Assembly (NCBI GenBank): GCA_016873715.1
Contig: VGWF01000051.1
Span: forward strand, 1-32,217
Source: Lentisphaerota bacterium
GTDB taxonomy: Bacteria > Verrucomicrobiota > Kiritimatiellia > PWTM01
DNA length: 32,217 nt
Direction of reading: 5' to 3'
The notes beneath the pieces were generated by a model. The model searched no databases and was not told the origin of the DNA. It was given only the letters and a program-made list of their open reading frames with translations. How positions within the stretch are numbered: position 1 is the stretch's first letter; each line of letters begins with the position of its first letter. Shown here piece by piece: positions 233 through 32,217 of the stretch. Made by a program: the position numbers and the translations under genes.

Positions 233-979
233 ATGCCGGAGACGGTCCAGCTCTTCGTGACGTGCCTCGTCGACACGTTCTTCCCCGGGATCGGGGAGGC
301 GGTGGTCCGCGTGCTGCGCCGCGCCGGCGCGCGCGTCGAGTTCCCCGCCGGCCAGACCTGCTGCGGCCAGCCCGCCTTCAACGCGGGCCTCCGGTCCGAG
401 GCCCGTCCGATCGCGGAGCACACGATCCGCGTCTTCGAGGCGGCGCCCGGCCCCGTGGTCATCCCGTCCGGCTCCTGCGCGGCGATGGTGCGCCACGGCT
501 ACCTCGAGCTCTTCCGCGACGACCCCGGGTGGCTCGCGCGGGCCGAGGGGCTGGCGAGGCGCACGTACGAACTGACCGAGTACCTCGTCGACGTCCGCGG
601 CATCGCGGCCGGGCCGGGCGCGCCCACGCTGGGGGCCCGCTGGCCCGGCAAGCTCGCGTACCACGCCTCCTGCCACCTGCTGCGCGGCCTCGGCGTCGAC
701 CGCCAGCCGCGCGCCCTGCTCGCGTCGGTCGAGGGGGCGGAACTCGTCGACCTCCCCGGCCACGACGAGTGCTGCGGCTTCGGCGGCGTGTTCTCCGTCG
801 AGCACCCCGAGCTCTCCGCCGAGTTCCTCAACCGCAAGATCGCCAACCTCGAATCGACCGGCGCCCCCACGCTCGTCGTCGCCGACACCGGCTGCCTCAT
901 GCACATCCAGGGCGGCCTCCGCCGCCAGGACCGGTCGCCCCGCGTCGTCCACATCGCCGAGGTGCTGGCCTCCGTATGA
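233..979 (+). CDS. lutA: LutA-like L-lactate utilisation protein, (Fe-S) oxidoreductase with two CCG domains
   Basis: This 248-residue cytoplasmic protein matches LutA (YkgE), one of three subunits of the LutABC complex that oxidises L-lactate to pyruvate. Two cysteine-rich CCG motifs are visible, CCGQPAFN at residues 43-50 and CCGFGG at 180-185, each the iron-sulfur or heterodisulfide-reductase-type signature of the family. A CHLLRG motif lies between them. The length is that of a typical LutA. The stop codon overlaps the next start codon (ATGA at 976-979), so translation is probably coupled to the lutBC fusion. No lactate permease gene (lutP) is adjacent. The start at 233 is supported by the promoter spacing, since no upstream in-frame ATG or Shine-Dalgarno sequence is seen. 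Confidence 0.93.
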   Translation: MPETVQLFVTCLVDTFFPGIGEAVVRVLRRAGARVEFPAGQTCCGQPAFNAGLRSEARPIAEHTIRVFEAAPGPVVIPSGSCAAMVRHGYLELFRDDPGWLARAEGLARRTYELTEYLVDVRGIAAGPGAPTLGARWPGKLAYHASCHLLRGLGVDRQPRALLASVEGAELVDLPGHDECCGFGGVFSVEHPELSAEFLNRKIANLESTGAPTLVVADTGCLMHIQGGLRRQDRSPRVVHIAEVLASV

Positions 980-3060
980 ACGGACTCCGGCAGCGCATCC
1001 GCGCCTCGCTCGGCGACGCCAACCTGCAGGCGGCGCTGGACAACAACGCGACGCGCCGCAAGGCCGGCCGTCTCGCGGCCTTCGCCCAGGTGCCCGACCA
1101 CGCCGCGCGGCGCGCGCGGGCGCACGCGGTGAAGGCCGATGTCATCGCGCGGCTCGACGAGCACCTCGCCCGGTTCACCGACCGCGTGACGGCCAACGGG
1201 ATCATGGTCCACCACGCCCGGGACGGCGCCGCGGCCGTGAACCTCGTGCTCGCCATCGTCGGCGACGCCGTCCGCGCCCGCCCGCCCGCCGACGGCGCCG
1301 CGCCGCTGGTCGCGAAGGCGAAGTCGATGGTCTCCGAGGAGATCGCCCTCAACCACGCCCTCGCGGACCACGGCATCCGCGCCGTCGAGACCGACCTCGG
1401 CGAGTACATCGTCCAGCTCCGCGGCGAACGCCCCAGCCACATCATCACGCCGGCCGTCCACCTGCGCCGGCAGGACGTCGGCCGCCTCTTCGCCGACCGG
1501 CTCGGCATCCCGTACACCGAGGACATCCCGACGCTGACCGCCACCGCCCGGCGCGTGCTGCGCGAGGTCTTCCTCACCGCCGACGTCGGCGTCTCCGGCG
1601 TCAACTTCGGCGTCGTCGAAACCGGCACGCTCGCCCTCGTCACGAACGAGGGCAACGGACGGATGTGCACGACCGTCCCGCCGGTCCACGTCGCGCTGAT
1701 GGGCGTCGAGCGCCTCGTGCCGACGCTCGACGACCTCGCCCTCTTCCTTTCCCTGCTGCCGCGCTCGGCGACCGGCCAGAAGCTGAGCGTCTACACGAGC
1801 CTCCTCCACGGCCCCCGGCGCGCCGACGACGCCGACGGCCCGCGCGAGCGGCACCTGATCCTCGTCGACAACGGCCGCCGCGCCCTTCGCGACTCGCCGC
1901 TCGCGGAGGCCCTCGCGTGCATCCGGTGCGGCGCGTGCCTCAACATCTGCCCGGTGTTCCGCGAGACCGGCGGCCACGCCTACCTCGGCCGCGACGGCTC
2001 GATCGCACCCTACCCCGGCCCGATCGGCTCGGTCGTCTCTGCCGGTCTCTTCGGCTGCCGGACCTACGGTCCCCTCGCGCAGGCCTCGTCGCTCTGCGGC
2101 GCCTGCCGCGAGGCGTGCCCGGTGGACATCGACCTGCCCGGCCTGCTGCTGCGCGTCCGCGCCGGCGAGACGCCGCGCCCGCCGGGAACGCGGCGGGCCG
2201 AGGGCGTCGGCCTGCCCTCCGCCGTTCGCGCGGGACTCCGCGCCTTCCGCGTCGCCGCGCGCCACCCGCGCCTGTTCGCCGCCGGTCAGCGTCTCGCCGC
2301 GCTCGCGTCCCGGCTCGTCCCGCACCGCGACGGCTGGATGCGCCTGCCCGCCGCCACCGGCTGGGGACTCAGCAAGGACTTTCCCCGGCCCGCTGCGAAG
2401 GCCTTCCGGGCGCGATGGGGGGAGGAGGCGGAAGAGGAAAGCCGCGAGGCGGGAGTCGGGGAGCGGCGGGCGGGGACCGGGGATGGACAGCCGGCACCGG
2501 CGGACGACGATGTCGCGGGCGCGGAGGCGGGGGATCTCATCGGACGGTTCGAGAGCGAGCTGGCGGCCCTGGGCGGGATCGTGCATATCGTTCCGCCCGG
2601 CGGGGTGCACGCGACGGTCGACGCCCTTCTCGCGGAACGGGGCATCACGCACATCCAGATGGGCGGCGATGTGCCCCACGTCGACGTCGCGGCGCTCGGG
2701 GCCGCGGGCATCGAGGCGCAGCGCGGGCCGGTCGAGACGATCCGCGCCGGACTCACGGGTGCGATCGCGGGCATCGCCGAGACCGGCTCGATCGTCCTCG
2801 CCGGAGGGTACGGCCGGCCCCTGACCGCCTCGCTGGTCCCCCCGATGCACATCGCCGTCCTCGACGCCTCGCAACTCGTCGCGACCGTCGCCGAGGCGCT
2901 CGCGCTGCCGGCGGTCCGCGCATGCGCCGCGGGCGCGATCGTCACCGGCCCCTCCCGCACCGCCGACATCGAGATGACCCTGACCATCGGCGTCCACGGC
3001 CCCGGCGAGATCCACGTGATCCTCGCTGCCGACCGCCCGGACCGGCCGGACCGCGGATGA
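976..3060 (+). CDS. lutB: LutB-LutC fusion protein, L-lactate utilisation iron-sulfur protein
   Basis: This 694-residue protein joins two proteins that are separate in the characterised LutABC systems. Residues about 50-290 form a LUD domain, with ETGTLALVTNEGN starting at residue 215. A ferredoxin-like region follows, with CIRCGACLNIC at 315-325 and CGACREACP at 374-382, as in LutB. After a low-complexity acidic and arginine-rich linker (about 475-510), residues 515-694 form a second LUD domain with ETGSIVLAGG at 602 and the LutC signature GPSRTADIE at 658-666. Together with LutA it should oxidise L-lactate to pyruvate in the cytoplasm. The ATG overlaps the lutA stop codon. The linker coincides with a degenerate heptanucleotide repeat. 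The fusion seems intact, with one continuous frame and no internal stop. Confidence 0.92.
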   Translation: MNGLRQRIRASLGDANLQAALDNNATRRKAGRLAAFAQVPDHAARRARAHAVKADVIARLDEHLARFTDRVTANGIMVHHARDGAAAVNLVLAIVGDAVRARPPADGAAPLVAKAKSMVSEEIALNHALADHGIRAVETDLGEYIVQLRGERPSHIITPAVHLRRQDVGRLFADRLGIPYTEDIPTLTATARRVLREVFLTADVGVSGVNFGVVETGTLALVTNEGNGRMCTTVPPVHVALMGVERLVPTLDDLALFLSLLPRSATGQKLSVYTSLLHGPRRADDADGPRERHLILVDNGRRALRDSPLAEALACIRCGACLNICPVFRETGGHAYLGRDGSIAPYPGPIGSVVSAGLFGCRTYGPLAQASSLCGACREACPVDIDLPGLLLRVRAGETPRPPGTRRAEGVGLPSAVRAGLRAFRVAARHPRLFAAGQRLAALASRLVPHRDGWMRLPAATGWGLSKDFPRPAAKAFRARWGEEAEEESREAGVGERRAGTGDGQPAPADDDVAGAEAGDLIGRFESELAALGGIVHIVPPGGVHATVDALLAERGITHIQMGGDVPHVDVAALGAAGIEAQRGPVETIRAGLTGAIAGIAETGSIVLAGGYGRPLTASLVPPMHIAVLDASQLVATVAEALALPAVRACAAGAIVTGPSRTADIEMTLTIGVHGPGEIHVILAADRPDRPDRG
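2444..2485 (+). repeat. Degenerate heptanucleotide tandem repeat inside the lutBC linker
   Basis: Six consecutive 7-mers read GCGAGGC, GGGAGTC, GGGGAGC, GGCGGGC, GGGGACC and GGGGATG. The 42-bp array keeps the frame and encodes residues about 490-504 of the LutB-LutC fusion, in the hinge between the two parts. Similar heptamer arrays occur at 9402-9450, 19566-19593 and 19639-19666. Confidence 0.55.
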
Positions 3061-3162: not shown

Positions 3163-3177
3163 TTCCAACCCTTGGAA
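3163..3177. promoter_or_regulatory. Palindromic operator-like site TTCCAACCCTTGGAA
   Basis: This is a perfect 6-bp dyad with a 3-bp centre, TTCCAA-CCC-TTGGAA. It lies just downstream of the predicted -10 box, the classic position for a repressor operator. A second, similar site is centred 31 bp further on. A third and a degenerate fourth site lie at 30734-30778 ahead of a sulfatase gene. The binding protein is unknown. Confidence 0.55.
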
Positions 3178-3188
3178 GGCGGTGCGAC

Positions 3189-5474
3189 GTGGCGTCCAAT
3201 CCTTGGAAGATCGGAGCCGTGCTTGCCCTCGCCGCGGCGGCCCACGCGGGGCCGGGCATCCTGCCCGAGGGCTCCGCGCCGCCGCCCGTGCCCTGCCCGC
3301 ACTTCCCGGACCGCCTCCACGCCGTCGTCTGGCGCAACTGGCCGGTGGTGCCCGCGCGGACGCTCGCCGCGACGCTCGGCGCGACGGAGGCGCAGGTCGC
3401 GGGCCTCGCCGCCTCGATGGGCCTCCCGCCGCAGGGCGACATCGCGCCCGAATGGCGCACGCGGGGCTATATCACGATCCTCCGCCGCAACTGGCACCTG
3501 CTGCCCTACGAGCAGATACTGCCGCTGGTCGACATGACGCCCGAACGTCTCGCCGACTCGCTGCGCGAGGACGACTTCCTCTTCCACAAGTTCGGCAACC
3601 TGAAGCCGAAGTGCGAGCCGCTGGCATGGGCACCGCCGAACGAGGGCGCCCGCGCCCGCGCCGCGGAGATCGCCGCCTTTGTCCGCGCGAACCTCGCGGA
3701 TGCCCTGCGCGTTCCCGAGGAGCCGCGCTTCCGCTTCGTCGCCGACCTGTCCGCGGCCGCCCCCGCGGCCCGGACGGAGACGGGCCGGGCATCGGGACGG
3801 CTGCGCTACATCTACTCGTACTTCGCGCCCTACGGCGACCCGCTCATGCGTCCGGACCTCGACCCGTATCCGGACGGCCTCCTCGCCCGCCTCGCCGAGG
3901 CCGGCGTCAGCGGCGTGTGGCTGCACACCGTCCTGCGCACGCTCGCGCCGAGCCCGCTCTTCCCGGAGTTCGGCGAGGGCCACGGGACGCGGCTGGCCGG
4001 CCTGCGCGCCCTGGTGGAGCGGGCGCAACGGCACGGGATCCGCGTCTACCTCTACATGAACGAGCCGCGCGGCATGCCGGCGGCGTTCTTCGAGGCGCCG
4101 GGCCGCGCGGACCTCGCCGGCGTGCGCGAGGGCGACACGGTTGCCTTCTGCACCTCGCGCCCCGAGGTGCGCCGGTGGATGGAGGATTCGCTCGCGACCG
4201 TGTTCGAGCGCGTGCCCGGCCTCGGCGGCGTCTTCTCGATCACGGCGTCGGAGAACCTGACGAGCTGCGCCTCGCATCACAAGCACGCCCAGTGCCTGCG
4301 CTGCAAGGACCGTCCGGCGGCGGAGATCATCGCGGAGGTCAACGCGACGATCGAGGCGGGGGTGCACCGGGCGGCGCCGGGGGCGGATGTGATCGCTTGG
4401 GACTGGGGCTGGAAGGACGACTGGAGCGCCGACGCGATCGCGCGCCTGCCGAAGTCCGTGATGCTGCAGTCCGTCAGCGAGTGGTCGCTCCCGATCGTCC
4501 GCGGCGGCGTGACCTCCGCGGTCGGCGAGTACTCGATCTCGTCCGTCGGCCCCGGCCCGCGCGCGACACGCCACTGGGTGCTCGCCCGCGAAGCCGGCCT
4601 GCGCACGGTCGCCAAGGTCCAGCTCAACAACACGTGGGAGATCTCGACGGTGCCCTACCTCCCGGTGATGGACCTCGTCGCGGAGCACGGCGCGAACCTC
4701 GCGCGAAGCGGCGTCGACGGCCTCATGCTGAGCTGGAGCCTCGGCGGATACCCGTCGCCCAACCTGGACATCGCGCGCCGCTTCGAGGCGCGCCCGCCGC
4801 CGGAGCCCGCGGCCGTGCTCGACGCCGTCGCCCGCGAGCGCTTCGGCGAGGCCGGCGCCGCGCGCGCCCGCCGCGCGTGGAGCGCGTTCTCCGCCGCCTT
4901 CCGCGAGTACCCGTTCAACACCAGCGTCATCTACCGCTGCCCGGTGCAGATCGGTCCCGCCAACCTGTTGTACGCCGAGCCGACCGGCTACAAGTCGACC
5001 ATGACCGGGATCCCCTACGACGACCTTGCCGGCTGGCGCGGCCCCTACCCGGCCGACGTCTTCGCCACGCAGTTCGCGACGATGGCGCAGGGCTGGGCGG
5101 CGGGGCTCCCGGATCTCGAGGCCGCCGCCGCGGCGGCCCCGGCGGACCGGCGCGCCGACGCGCTCGCGGAGGTCCGGTTCGCGCGAGCCGCCGGGGTCCA
5201 TTTCGCGAGCGTCGCGAACCAGGCCCGGTTCACCGCGCTGCGCGACCGCATCCTGGACGTCCGGAAGCCGCCCGCGCCGGAGGAACGCACGGCGATGGCC
5301 GGGGAGGCGAAGCGGATCGCGGCGGACGAACTGCGGCTGGCCGTCGAACTGCTGGCCATCGCCCGCGCCGACTCGCGCATTGGTTTCGAGGCCGCCAATC
5401 ACTACTTCTACCTGCCCGTCGACCTCATGGAGAAGGCCGTCGCCTGCGATTTCCTCCTCCGCCGCGCGTGGTAG
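3189..5474 (+). CDS. Predicted secreted TIM-barrel glycoside-hydrolase-like protein of unknown specificity
   Basis: The GTG at 3189 is preferred because it gives a 761-residue protein with a clean signal peptide (hydrophobic run at residues 8-20, AHA then GPG). The longer reading from 3123 would add an arginine-rich stretch overlapping the promoter. Residues 45-80 and 95-130 look like two copies of one helical motif, each built around (R)NW-x-x-x-P. From about residue 210 the pattern of alternating strands and helices, with aromatic- and glycine-rich strand ends, suggests a TIM barrel. SENLTSC (354-360) offers a candidate acid residue, Glu355, and Cys360, Cys369 and Cys372 form a possible disulfide or metal cluster. 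I recognise no specific glycosidase family. The next gene encodes a beta-helix lipoprotein, so this is likely part of a polysaccharide-degrading set. A palindromic site overlaps its first codons. Confidence 0.7.
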   Translation: MASNPWKIGAVLALAAAAHAGPGILPEGSAPPPVPCPHFPDRLHAVVWRNWPVVPARTLAATLGATEAQVAGLAASMGLPPQGDIAPEWRTRGYITILRRNWHLLPYEQILPLVDMTPERLADSLREDDFLFHKFGNLKPKCEPLAWAPPNEGARARAAEIAAFVRANLADALRVPEEPRFRFVADLSAAAPAARTETGRASGRLRYIYSYFAPYGDPLMRPDLDPYPDGLLARLAEAGVSGVWLHTVLRTLAPSPLFPEFGEGHGTRLAGLRALVERAQRHGIRVYLYMNEPRGMPAAFFEAPGRADLAGVREGDTVAFCTSRPEVRRWMEDSLATVFERVPGLGGVFSITASENLTSCASHHKHAQCLRCKDRPAAEIIAEVNATIEAGVHRAAPGADVIAWDWGWKDDWSADAIARLPKSVMLQSVSEWSLPIVRGGVTSAVGEYSISSVGPGPRATRHWVLAREAGLRTVAKVQLNNTWEISTVPYLPVMDLVAEHGANLARSGVDGLMLSWSLGGYPSPNLDIARRFEARPPPEPAAVLDAVARERFGEAGAARARRAWSAFSAAFREYPFNTSVIYRCPVQIGPANLLYAEPTGYKSTMTGIPYDDLAGWRGPYPADVFATQFATMAQGWAAGLPDLEAAAAAAPADRRADALAEVRFARAAGVHFASVANQARFTALRDRILDVRKPPAPEERTAMAGEAKRIAADELRLAVELLAIARADSRIGFEAANHYFYLPVDLMEKAVACDFLLRRAW
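3195..3207. promoter_or_regulatory. Second palindromic operator-like site, TCCAATCCTTGGA
   Basis: TCCAA-TCC-TTGGA repeats the half-sites and 3-bp spacing of the palindrome at 3163-3177, with centres 31 bp (about three helical turns) apart. It lies within codons 3-7 of the downstream gene. This suggests cooperative binding of one regulator, but that is inference. Confidence 0.5.
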
Positions 5475-16034: not shown

Positions 16035-16370
16035 GCGGTCCCACCGGGCATGCACCGGGAGCCGGGGTTCGGTCGCGGGCCCGCCCCACCGGGATTGCAC
16101 GCTCCCGTCCGCAAAGCTTGGCGGTCCCACCGGGCTTGCATCGTGAAGAGGAACCCGGTTGCGGTCCTGGTCCCACCGGGCTTGCCCCCTCGCGCCCGCA
16201 CGGCTTGGCGGTCCCACCGGGCTTGCATCGTGAAGAGGAACCCGGTTGCGGTCCCGGTCCCACCAGGCTTGTCTCCTCTCGCCCGCACGGTTTGCAGTCC
16301 CACCGGGCTTGCATCGTGAAGAGGAACCCGGTTGCGGTCCCGGTCCCACCGGGCTTGTCCCGGTGGGGAG
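16035..16370. repeat. Minisatellite with an 86/87-bp unit, four copies
   Basis: Copies start near 16035 (degenerate), 16121, 16208 and 16294 (last one shorter). Copies 2 to 4 are almost identical. Each unit holds two copies of a core GGTCCCACCGGGCTTG, giving eight cores with starts alternating about 41 and 46 bp apart (16037, 16082, 16123, 16169, 16210, 16256, 16296, 16342). The array ends in a perfect 9-bp hairpin, CCCACCGGG (16345-16353) and CCCGGTGGG (16359-16367), with a 5-nt loop. Confidence 0.9.
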
Positions 16371-22039: not shown

Positions 22040-22107
22040 GTAGTCCTCACGCTCCGCGTGATGACACCAGATTGCGGAGATGTCCTCACGCGGAGCGTGA
22101 GGACTAC
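22040..22107. repeat. Long inverted repeat, MITE- or REP-like
   Basis: Arms of 26 bp (22040-22065 and 22082-22107) are inverted copies with one mismatch, separated by 16 bp. Each arm contains its own dyad, TCACGCTCCGCGTGA. It would form a strong hairpin in DNA or RNA and could also terminate transcription. Confidence 0.85.
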
Positions 22108-29242: not shown

Positions 29243-30697
29243 TCACTTCGGCGGTGCGTACAGGTGACGGCCCTTCCCCGCGGCGCGGTGGGCCTCGTGG
29301 GTGTCCTGCGGAATCCCGGGGTCGCCCTGCGCGGCGAGCCAGCGGTCGAGTTCGGCCGAGAGCCGCGCCTTGACCGCCGCGTGGGCCGGGTGGCCGGCGA
29401 GGTCGGTCATCTCGTGCGGGTCGGCGGCCGTGTGGTAGAGCTGCTCCGCCGGGCGGACCATGTATCGCTTCACGAGGCGGTAGGTGTCCGGGTTGTCCGA
29501 CGCGGTCGCAACCCAGGTCGGCCAGTAGGGGTTGTGCGGCGCGCCGCCGCCGAGGAGACCCATCAGGTGCTTCTCGATGTAGATCTCGTCCGGCGTGAGA
29601 TTGCGGATGTAGCGCCACTCGCCGTCGGTCACGCTGCGGACCGGGTAGGCCGGCCCCTCGGGAATGTTGTTGTGCGCGCCGTGGGCGAAGGTCCGGTGCG
29701 TGTCCTTCGCGCCGCGGAGCACGGCGGCGAAGCTCGTGCCGTCGAACGCGAACGCGGCGTCGGTCGGCGTGCCGCCGGCAAGGTCCACGAGCGTCGGCGC
29801 GACGTCGGCGTACTGGACGACGGCGTCCGTGTGCCGACCGGCCGCCACCTGGCCCGGCCAGCGGGCGACGAGCGCCGTGCGCAGGCCCGTGTCCCAGTTC
29901 GTCCACTTGCAGCCGGGGAACTGCGAGCCCTGCTCGCTGCTGAAGAGCACGAGCGTGTCCTTCTCCAGCCCCGCCTCGCGCAGCGCGGCGAGGATCTCCC
30001 CGACCTGGCCGTCCATGTACGTGATCTCCGCAAGATAGGCGCCAAAATCCTCGCGCGTCTTCGGCGTGTCGGCGAGGTGGGGCGGCAACGCGATCGTCGC
30101 CGGCGGGTACTGCGAGCGGTCGCCCATCACCCACGGCACGTGCGGCTCGACGAGCGCGACGACGAGGCAGAACGGCTCGTCCGCCCTGCGGGTCATGAAC
30201 GCGCGGACGCCATCCAGGCTGTGCGGCTGCGTCGGGTCGCGCGTGCAGCTCGTGTCGAAGCCGGGGACGGCCTCGAACGGGAACGCGGCCTTCGGCGCGA
30301 CGTGCACCTTGCCCGCGAGGCCGACACGGTAGCCGAGCGCGCCGAGGTGCTGCGGCAGGCTGCGCGTCTCCGGCCGGCTCGCGCTGTGGTTCCACGCGCA
30401 GCCGTTGCGCATCGGGGTCTGTCCGCTGTAGAGCTCCGCCCGGCACGGCTGGCACATCGCCATGCCGACGTAGGCGCGGTTGAACGTGAGCCCCTGCGCC
30501 GCGAACGCGTCGAGATTCGGCGTCCGCGCGTTCTTCCCGCCGTACAGCGGCAGGTCGTGCACCGTGCAGTCGTCCGCCAGGATCACCAGAACGTTCGGCC
30601 GAGGCGCCGGCACTCCTGTCGGCGCCGGACCGGCCTGCGCCACCGCCGCCCCCAGCCCCGCCGCCGCCACGAGCAAGCCCATCCCCATTCCTGTCAT
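29243..30697 (-). CDS. Secreted type I sulfatase with Glu-Gln in place of Asp-His
   Basis: From ATG at 30697 the product has 484 residues with a short signal peptide (GLLVAAAGLGAAVAQA). The formylglycine motif CQPCR (Cys82-Arg86) fits the C-x-P-x-R consensus. Asp42 and Asp43 are N-terminal calcium ligands, Lys130 and His132 (GKVHV) and His186 (EPHVPW) match the active site. The usual Asp-His/Asn metal pair is replaced by Glu255-Gln256 in SSEQGSQF, and Lys264 follows. It lies 53 bp downstream of the acetylesterase gene and is probably in one operon with it, but paired operator-like sites in between suggest its own control. The subfamily and substrate are not assigned. Confidence 0.9.
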   Translation of the reverse strand: MTGMGMGLLVAAAGLGAAVAQAGPAPTGVPAPRPNVLVILADDCTVHDLPLYGGKNARTPNLDAFAAQGLTFNRAYVGMAMCQPCRAELYSGQTPMRNGCAWNHSASRPETRSLPQHLGALGYRVGLAGKVHVAPKAAFPFEAVPGFDTSCTRDPTQPHSLDGVRAFMTRRADEPFCLVVALVEPHVPWVMGDRSQYPPATIALPPHLADTPKTREDFGAYLAEITYMDGQVGEILAALREAGLEKDTLVLFSSEQGSQFPGCKWTNWDTGLRTALVARWPGQVAAGRHTDAVVQYADVAPTLVDLAGGTPTDAAFAFDGTSFAAVLRGAKDTHRTFAHGAHNNIPEGPAYPVRSVTDGEWRYIRNLTPDEIYIEKHLMGLLGGGAPHNPYWPTWVATASDNPDTYRLVKRYMVRPAEQLYHTAADPHEMTDLAGHPAHAAVKARLSAELDRWLAAQGDPGIPQDTHEAHRAAGKGRHLYAPPK

Positions 30698-30733
30698 GTC
30701 CCCGCCTCCCGCACCGCCCTTGCCGCGTCGCGC

Positions 30734-30778
30734 TCCAAGGATCGAGCGCCTCACGGCGCGGCGGTTCCAACCGTTGGA
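30734..30778. promoter_or_regulatory. Paired operator-like palindromes ahead of the sulfatase
   Basis: TCCAA-CCG-TTGGA (30766-30778) has the same half-sites and spacing as the sites at 3163-3207. A degenerate second site, TCCAA-GGA-TCGAG (30734-30746), is centred 32 bp away, again about three turns. The first lies in the last codons of the acetylesterase gene, and both lie before the sulfatase ATG. Confidence 0.45.
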
Positions 30779-32217
30779 GCCTCCCCGTCGTCCGTCCGGA
30801 ACGGCGAGGCGGGCAGGCCCGCGGCGTTGACGAGGTTGCAGGCGGGGTTCATCGCCCACGCGTAGCGGACCGCGACCGGCGCCTTCACGTCGGGGCTGGA
30901 GACGACGGCCTTCGCCCCCTCGATCCGCGCGACGGCCGGCTTCCACTGCTTGTCCGCCCCCGCCACCTCGAAGCCCTTCACGTCCCCGTCCGCCGCCTTC
31001 AGCCCGCCGGCATGCGTGAACGACACGACGACCTCGGATCCGCGAATCTCGTGGCCGGCGGGGAGCGGACCGCTCGTCTCCGGGACCTTCCTCCCGTACA
31101 CATCGCCGAGCGCCCACAGGGAGAGCCGGCGCCCGACCTCCTGCTTGTTTTTCGGGTGGATGTCCTTCGGATCGCCGATGTCGACCGTGATCGCCATGCC
31201 CGTCTTGGGGAGCTTCAAGGTCTTGAGCATCGCCTCGCGGACGAGCAGCCAGTTGTCGCCCGTGCTCTCGCGTTCGAGGTTCGGGAGCTGGACCCACGCG
31301 AACGGGAACTCCGAGCCCCAGCGCGCACGCCAGTCGGTGACGAGCAGCGGAAGCTGGTGCTGGTAGACCGCGCCCTTGCCCGGATGCGAATTCGCCTCGC
31401 CCTGGTACCACACGGCGCCGCGGATCGCGTAGGGGATCAGCGGCGCGATCTTGCCGTTGAACAGCCCGCCGACATTGCCCTTCCTCGCCCGTGTTTCGAC
31501 GGGATCCCGCGGCGCCCGGGGCGCGGGCTTCCCCTCGGCTTTTGCCTTCTCTGCGAGTGTCTTCCACCGCGCCACCGCCTTCGCGTGGTCCGCCTTCGCG
31601 GCCTCGACGTCGAAATCCGCCTCCGCCTTCGCCGCGGCCTCGGCGGCCGCTTTGAGCTCCGGCACCGCCGCCTGGACGTCGGCCGCGATCCACGACTCGA
31701 TCGGCGTACCGCCGACGGACGAGTTGATCAGGCCGACCGGCACCTTGAGTTCGCGGTGCACTTCGCGGCCGAAGAAGTAGAGCGTCGCGGAGAACGTGCC
31801 GACCGTCTCCGGCGCGCAGACCTTCCACGCGCCTGTTCCCTTCTCTTGCGGCGTCGCCACGGCCCGCGAGCCCTCCGTGAACATGCGGACAAGCGGCAGG
31901 TTCGCCGCCGCTTTCTCGGCCTCGTAGTCCTTCGCGCGGGACACGCTCATCGCCATGTTCGACTGGCCCGAGCCGAGCCACACCTCGCCTACGAGCACGT
32001 CGGCGATCTCGATCTTCCGGTCCGGCGCGGCCGACCGCACCACCAGCGCGCGCGGCTCCGCGCTGGCGGACATGGGATCGAGCTTCACCCTCCACGTCCC
32101 GTCCGCACCCGCCGTCGCGGTCTTCGACTGCCCCGCGAACTCGACCGCGATCTTCTCGCCGGGATCCGCCCAGCCCCACACCGGCACCGCCATCTCCCGC
32201 TGCAGGACCCTGTGGGG
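30751..32217 (-). CDS. Sialate O-acetylesterase (SASA) family protein, 5' end cut by window
   Basis: The reading frame runs off the window edge, giving 488 residues without start codon or signal peptide. The visible start, LQREMAVPVWGWADPGE, is typical of the N-terminal part of SASA-type esterases, so little is missing beyond a leader. The catalytic Ser lies in GSGQSNM (codon at 31960-31962), WYQGEAN forms the oxyanion region, and DIHPKNKQ carries the Asp-x-His pair. These enzymes remove O-acetyl groups from sialic acids or, in glycan-degrading bacteria, from plant and algal polysaccharides. An Ala- and Lys-rich helical insertion (KAAAEAAAKAEADF onward) interrupts the fold. Its last codons overlap an operator-like palindrome. 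Confidence 0.88.
   Translation of the reverse strand, partial: PHRVLQREMAVPVWGWADPGEKIAVEFAGQSKTATAGADGTWRVKLDPMSASAEPRALVVRSAAPDRKIEIADVLVGEVWLGSGQSNMAMSVSRAKDYEAEKAAANLPLVRMFTEGSRAVATPQEKGTGAWKVCAPETVGTFSATLYFFGREVHRELKVPVGLINSSVGGTPIESWIAADVQAAVPELKAAAEAAAKAEADFDVEAAKADHAKAVARWKTLAEKAKAEGKPAPRAPRDPVETRARKGNVGGLFNGKIAPLIPYAIRGAVWYQGEANSHPGKGAVYQHQLPLLVTDWRARWGSEFPFAWVQLPNLERESTGDNWLLVREAMLKTLKLPKTGMAITVDIGDPKDIHPKNKQEVGRRLSLWALGDVYGRKVPETSGPLPAGHEIRGSEVVVSFTHAGGLKAADGDVKGFEVAGADKQWKPAVARIEGAKAVVSSPDVKAPVAVRYAWAMNPACNLVNAAGLPASPFRTDDGEAPTVGTAAP

Follow-up and report, generated by a model that had tools for sequence, protein, structure and literature searches.

The matS, Noc and SlmA sites are symmetric, gene-independent and spread along the chromosome, with tens of sites and a regional bias. 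The paired palindromes described here, in contrast, reach 1,339 copies and are uniform on the one chromosome sampled. REP/BIME elements are, like our arrays, short dispersed palindromes, mainly intergenic and in tandem, but the arrays have no common spacer, appear to have originated in place in coding genes and are independent of the Y1 transposase. NrdR boxes are tandem palindromes ~31–32 bp apart upstream of ribonucleotide reductase genes, both on the same face of the helix (PMC2892513). The arrays share this geometry, but their sequence is another one, and hundreds of gene-independent sites stand against the few promoter sites of NrdR per genome. The DUS of the Neisseriaceae comprise hundreds to thousands of short sites, genes included, and have lineage dialects (PMC3630211). 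The arrays are likewise many, short, in part intragenic and written in lineage dialects; DUS, however, are single asymmetric words, whereas the arrays are phased pairs of 7-1-7 palindromes.

The window, that is, the whole 32,217-nt stretch of DNA that was analysed, contains one such pair. Palindrome 1 (TTCCAAcccTTGGAA, TTCCAA-CCC-TTGGAA) is exact and lies at 3163–3177, and palindrome 2 (gTCCAAtccTTGGAA, gTCCAA-TCC-TTGGAA) lies at 3194–3208, where the outer T is the single mismatch. They are 31 bp from each other and are separated by a 16-bp spacer (3178–3193); no strand is assigned to palindromes or spacer. This is the position given in the earlier note. The gene adjoining the pair (3189–5474, + strand) starts at GTG 3189 or GTG 3219. 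The gene finder favoured GTG 3219, in which case both palindromes are upstream of the gene. With GTG 3189, the product is VASNPWKIGAVLALAAAAHAG, which is signal-peptide-like, and palindrome 2 makes up codons 2–7; a placement of this palindrome over the first codons, as described in the earlier note, is correct for this start and wrong for the other. The label 'glycosidase-like' is unsupported, because the gene has no Pfam match. The upstream gene (976–3060, + strand) encodes a LUD-domain/4Fe-4S protein (LutB-like). A third palindrome (TTCCAA-CCG-TTGGAg, one mismatch) was found at 30765–30779, where it covers the final codons of a gene (30751–32193), and a sulfatase gene (PF00884, 1e-39) lies downstream of it at 29243–30697 on the − strand. 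A second pair had been claimed before this sulfatase, 27 kb away. The good palindrome and the sulfatase are present, but the possible partner 32 bp off (30733–30747) is degenerate, consisting of the left arm only and having 5/12 mismatches. With up to one mismatch, TCCAANNNTTGGA occurs three times in the window versus 0.15 expected, and three copies were reached in 0/100 shuffles. A short direct repeat, GCTTGGCGGTCCCACC, is also present at 16118 and 16205, its copies 87 bp apart.

The genome of the window (5.13 Mb, ~71% G+C) was scanned for TTCCAANNNTTGGAA. We found 96 exact matches and 229 with at most one mismatch, while the reversed control pattern yielded 0 and 2, respectively; ~0.016 exact sites are expected from the base composition. 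Stretches totalling 832 kb of this genome contain 31 exact sites, every one of which is matched by a partner (≤2 mismatches) at 31 or 32 bp, compared with 0.009 expected per offset. A near-exact partner at 31/32 bp accompanies 63 of the 66 exact sites in G013, and slightly more than half of the exact sites in G040 and G056 have a partner at this distance. Pair distances over all loci fell at 21–22, 31–32, 42, 52–53, 62–63, 73, 83–84 and 93–94 bp, which corresponds to a period of ~10.4 bp. The period persisted when the 29–34 window was removed, in stretches not picked for pair spacing (Rayleigh p ~1e-16), although this p value is merely indicative, since pairs within an array are non-independent and multiples of 31 derive from the main spacing; the 21–22, 52–53 and 83–84 classes constitute the independent part of the phasing evidence. 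Such phasing is the trace expected of proteins sitting on one helical face, and the pair geometry fits the cooperative one-face binding that the earlier note proposed. In rumen-type genomes (L033, L115; G128:C1 and C3), we observed longer arrays with mixed two-turn and three-turn steps (e.g. 22-31-31-30-22), some of them nearly mirror-symmetric.

The motif is a 15-bp 7-1-7 palindrome, TTCCAAN-S-NTTGGAA. Of 519 exact sites, 512 have C or G at the centre. The inner bases depend on the lineage: T-S-A accounts for ~99% in AM-2014_bin-1020 and G-S-C for ~79% in G013 and G040, while the genome of the window is mixed. Less GC-rich genomes add A/T flanks (tTTCCAA..TTGGAAa). Within a genome, the similarity of the spacers equalled a column-preserving null in most cases, including the genome of the window, with a slight excess in CAIVKH. 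The spacers are thus unrelated; therefore, the constraint falls on the palindromes and their phase, and the arrays do not represent copies of one repeat. This genome also holds a second, BIME-like repeat (TCACGC-N3-GCGTGA), in which gtagtccTCACGCtccGCGTGAggac and TCACGCggaGCGTGA are ~39–44 bp apart. It occurs at 22047–22100 of the window and at L137, L142, L143, L152, L157 and L162, in near-identical and at times tandem copies. The presence of both element types in the same genome makes the spacer contrast an internal one.

Sites inside genes are informative on the origin of the arrays. In G056, 24 of 38 classified arrays lie inside called genes, many of clear family; the hosts include KsgA, an FMN-dependent dehydrogenase, a SpoU methylase, GATase, an MFS transporter, GluRS, agmatine deiminase and HMG-CoA reductase. 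The intragenic pairs keep their 30–32 bp spacing, although 31 bp shifts the reading frame, and the constraint therefore acts on the DNA. Eight intragenic windows of G056 were aligned against three congeners, and in seven of them, the alignment length across the site was exactly equal. According to complete lists of exact central-C sites for two congeners, the windows orthologous to those in KsgA, HMG-CoA reductase, GluRS, the FMN-dependent dehydrogenase, GATase and agmatine deiminase hold no such site. For agmatine deiminase, the site is absent from the sisters, but the window length differs by 15–18 nt somewhere. GluRS, agmatine deiminase and HMG-CoA reductase have no inserted segment at their sites when compared with solved homologues. 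In the best structure for KsgA, the alignment gap beside the sites runs in the other direction, and for GATase, the alignment with the solved structure stops before the sites. The absence of sites from sisters at equal alignment length indicates that, in this one genus and as judged from the alignments, the intragenic sites arose in place by substitution and not by insertion. SpoU departs from this pattern: compared with the congeners, its region is longer by 51–54 nt, forms an insert relative to the solved structure and carries a GCAGGC hairpin within the array. Some arrays of the G056/G119 genus (L195:13247–13334) have a GCAGGC hairpin in the spacer and resemble many places in G119.

These data bear on the possibility that the arrays are a REP/BIME- or MITE-like mobile repeat copying itself into intergenic DNA. 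The arrays are dispersed and palindromic and turn over quickly, and the SpoU copy within an insert implies that a subset may be mobile. However, their spacers resemble each other no more than the null, versus the near-identical copies of the real BIME-like repeat in the same genome, and orthologous windows of equal length lack the site. In addition, three motif-rich genomes (G003, G007 and G022) have no RAYT/Y1 transposase. We consider a mobile repeat quite unlikely, and REP/RAYT was rejected as the main explanation on the basis of the spacers, the equal-length windows and the missing transposase.

The gene context was assessed with gene calls from a home-made hexamer model, so that exact positions carry some uncertainty. 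Across five genomes, convergent gaps held 0.95 arrays per kb, tandem gaps 0.71 and divergent gaps 0.47, as against 0.034 for coding DNA. Some stretches of the genome of the window had been picked for holding a site; this affects the densities, while the gap types can still be compared with each other. Where a gap is tandem, the arrays are closer to the upstream stop than to the downstream start (mean relative position 0.41, p = 7e-5). The downstream genes are a housekeeping mix. Clustering of the flanking genes across genomes revealed no recurring family that could represent an autoregulated regulator. At orthologous loci of G013 and G040, which belong to the same genus, the array was on the same side in two cases, and the remaining compared loci were unshared. 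Sulfatases were next to arrays in 6/118 cases versus 3/118 controls (Fisher p = 0.5).

The earlier note had read the arrays as sites of a dedicated cooperative regulator of polysaccharide genes, and a sulfatase does adjoin the third palindrome in the window. Genome-wide, however, the sulfatase enrichment predicted upstream was absent, and so was an enrichment upstream of genes in general, a lack that the note itself had named as refuting. Sites occur next to tRNA synthetases, transporters and decarboxylases and inside GluRS, KsgA and HMG-CoA reductase. The gap-type densities, the stop-side bias, the mixed flanking genes and the unshared arrays together led us to reject a promoter regulon for polysaccharides, and we regard a dedicated regulator of this kind as hardly credible. 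A broader version, in which a global transcription factor of the classical type uses the arrays as operators throughout a large regulon, deserves slightly more weight than a mobile repeat, yet it is also unlikely. Its geometry would be that of the tandem NrdR boxes, ~31–32 bp apart (PMC2892513), and the sites are enriched between genes in the genome of the window (p ~1e-19). On the other hand, convergent gaps are denser than divergent ones, and the bias is toward the upstream stop codon. Arrays are mostly unconserved beside orthologues, G056 has many sites inside genes, and the functional classes of the neighbours do not recur.

The class bearing the motif is most likely Kiritimatiellia. Exact matches were present in 36 of 58 relatives, with 1 to 1,339 each, counts of a few being partly chance. 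Over the class, copy numbers range from 0 to 1,339, and the site density varies ~tenfold between genomes. Among 115 Verrucomicrobiota genomes compared, the ones that do not belong to the class had 0–4 exact matches, which is chance level. Where records with tandem pairs are named, they are MAGs of Kiritimatiellae, Lentisphaerae or Verrucomicrobia, except for a single 3-kb contig under a Firmicutes title and some records titled just 'uncultured' or Spartobacteria. Copy numbers differ sharply between sister species of the same genus (319 vs 3 and 4; 110 vs 1; 151 vs 5; 584 and 542 vs 81 and 65). To look for a drifted motif, 200 kb from each of the motif-free genomes G016 and G002 was searched de novo, and no comparable phased array was found. 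The GC-rich hairpins that lie between genes in G016 (L200–L209) are of two different families, CGCCCC-N3-GGGGCG and GCGTGC-N4-GCACGC. A viral origin was rejected, as 2.9 million viral contigs held four matching stretches on three contigs. In a literature search, the consensus strings appeared in no paper, and no paper describing a motif of this kind from the class was found. In four low-copy genomes, the true arrays examined (L238, L239, L240 and L241) mostly adjoin defence or mobile-type genes, with neighbours of the SMODS-like, RAMA/GIY-YIG and RhuM/Fic, HSDR_N and ResIII types. This suggests that these arrays arrived with transferred DNA.

Three candidate reader proteins were compared with the distribution of the motif, and none of them tracks it. 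NrdR was found in 30 of 30 genomes tested, motif or not; it does not discriminate between them and was rejected as the reader. ComEC is present in 49 of 50 class genomes and does not separate motif-rich from motif-free ones. The Y1 transposase is missing from the three motif-rich genomes named above. In G018, we observed in-frame TAG codons in the genes for ComEC (three; C1:1409676–1410500) and the Y1 transposase (one; C1:1893839–1894171), which may reflect TAG recoding or decay.

The main rival explanation is that the arrays are DUS/USS-like self marks. A dimeric receptor or competence protein would prefer DNA with paired sites, and biased recombination would accumulate the sites by substitution. 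The arrays have the corresponding traits: they appear to accumulate by substitution without insertion, coding sequence included, and their inner bases form lineage dialects like those of the Neisseriaceae DUS (PMC3630211). The uniform spread along the chromosome, the big swings in copy number, the near-universal ComEC and the defence or mobile-type neighbours of true arrays in the four low-copy genomes are also consistent with an uptake mark. Known DUS, however, are single and asymmetric and come in thousands of copies, as opposed to phased palindrome pairs, and ComEC fails to discriminate between the genomes. An uptake mark is conceivable but unlikely. More tentatively than the chromosome-level reading set out below, though with greater weight than an uptake mark by itself, the arrays might be regarded as a class-specific DNA identity code, in which phased palindrome pairs with lineage dialects are written by substitution chromosome-wide, including in housekeeping genes. 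A protein acting as a dimer of dimers would read this code, and its task would be either to pack the chromosome or, in gene transfer, to distinguish self from foreign DNA.

We favor, with a probability of about 0.5, the explanation that the pair in the window is one of many genome-wide, class-restricted sites for a putative cooperative, dimeric DNA-binding protein with a chromosome-level role. One symmetric dimer would occupy each 15-bp palindrome; another dimer, 31–32 bp off (or 21–22, 42 or 52–53 bp), would sit on the same helix face, and both would bind as a cooperative unit. The role could be compaction, looping or another DNA-wide function, and the neighbouring promoter would not be controlled. 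A function at the chromosome level would mean that sites can be used wherever the sequence tolerates change; new sites would come mostly from point substitution, chiefly between genes but also within them. On the single 3.9-Mb contig of G119, which looks like a complete chromosome, 86 sampled sites were distributed uniformly (KS p = 0.73) with no origin or terminus bias, which is the gene-independent spread seen for nucleoid and chromosome-protein sites. Against a chromosome protein stand the lack of a tested family that tracks the motif, the ~tenfold variation in density and the derivation of the in-place origin from one genus only. It is also odd that sister species have 3–4 versus 319 copies, which is unexpected for an essential chromosome protein.

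These results have practical consequences. Open reading frames that cross arrays yield the repeated peptides FQxLEK, FPxxGK and SNxWK, which should be kept in mind during annotation. The motif can be used as a marker for the DNA of this class in metagenomes and for transfers among its members. Hundreds to more than 1,000 phase-locked symmetric sites that appear to evolve in place, even in essential coding sequence, point to a strong force acting on the DNA beyond the control of any single gene. The reader protein, once found, would define a new chromosome-organising system or a new uptake or self mark in a little-cultured phylum.
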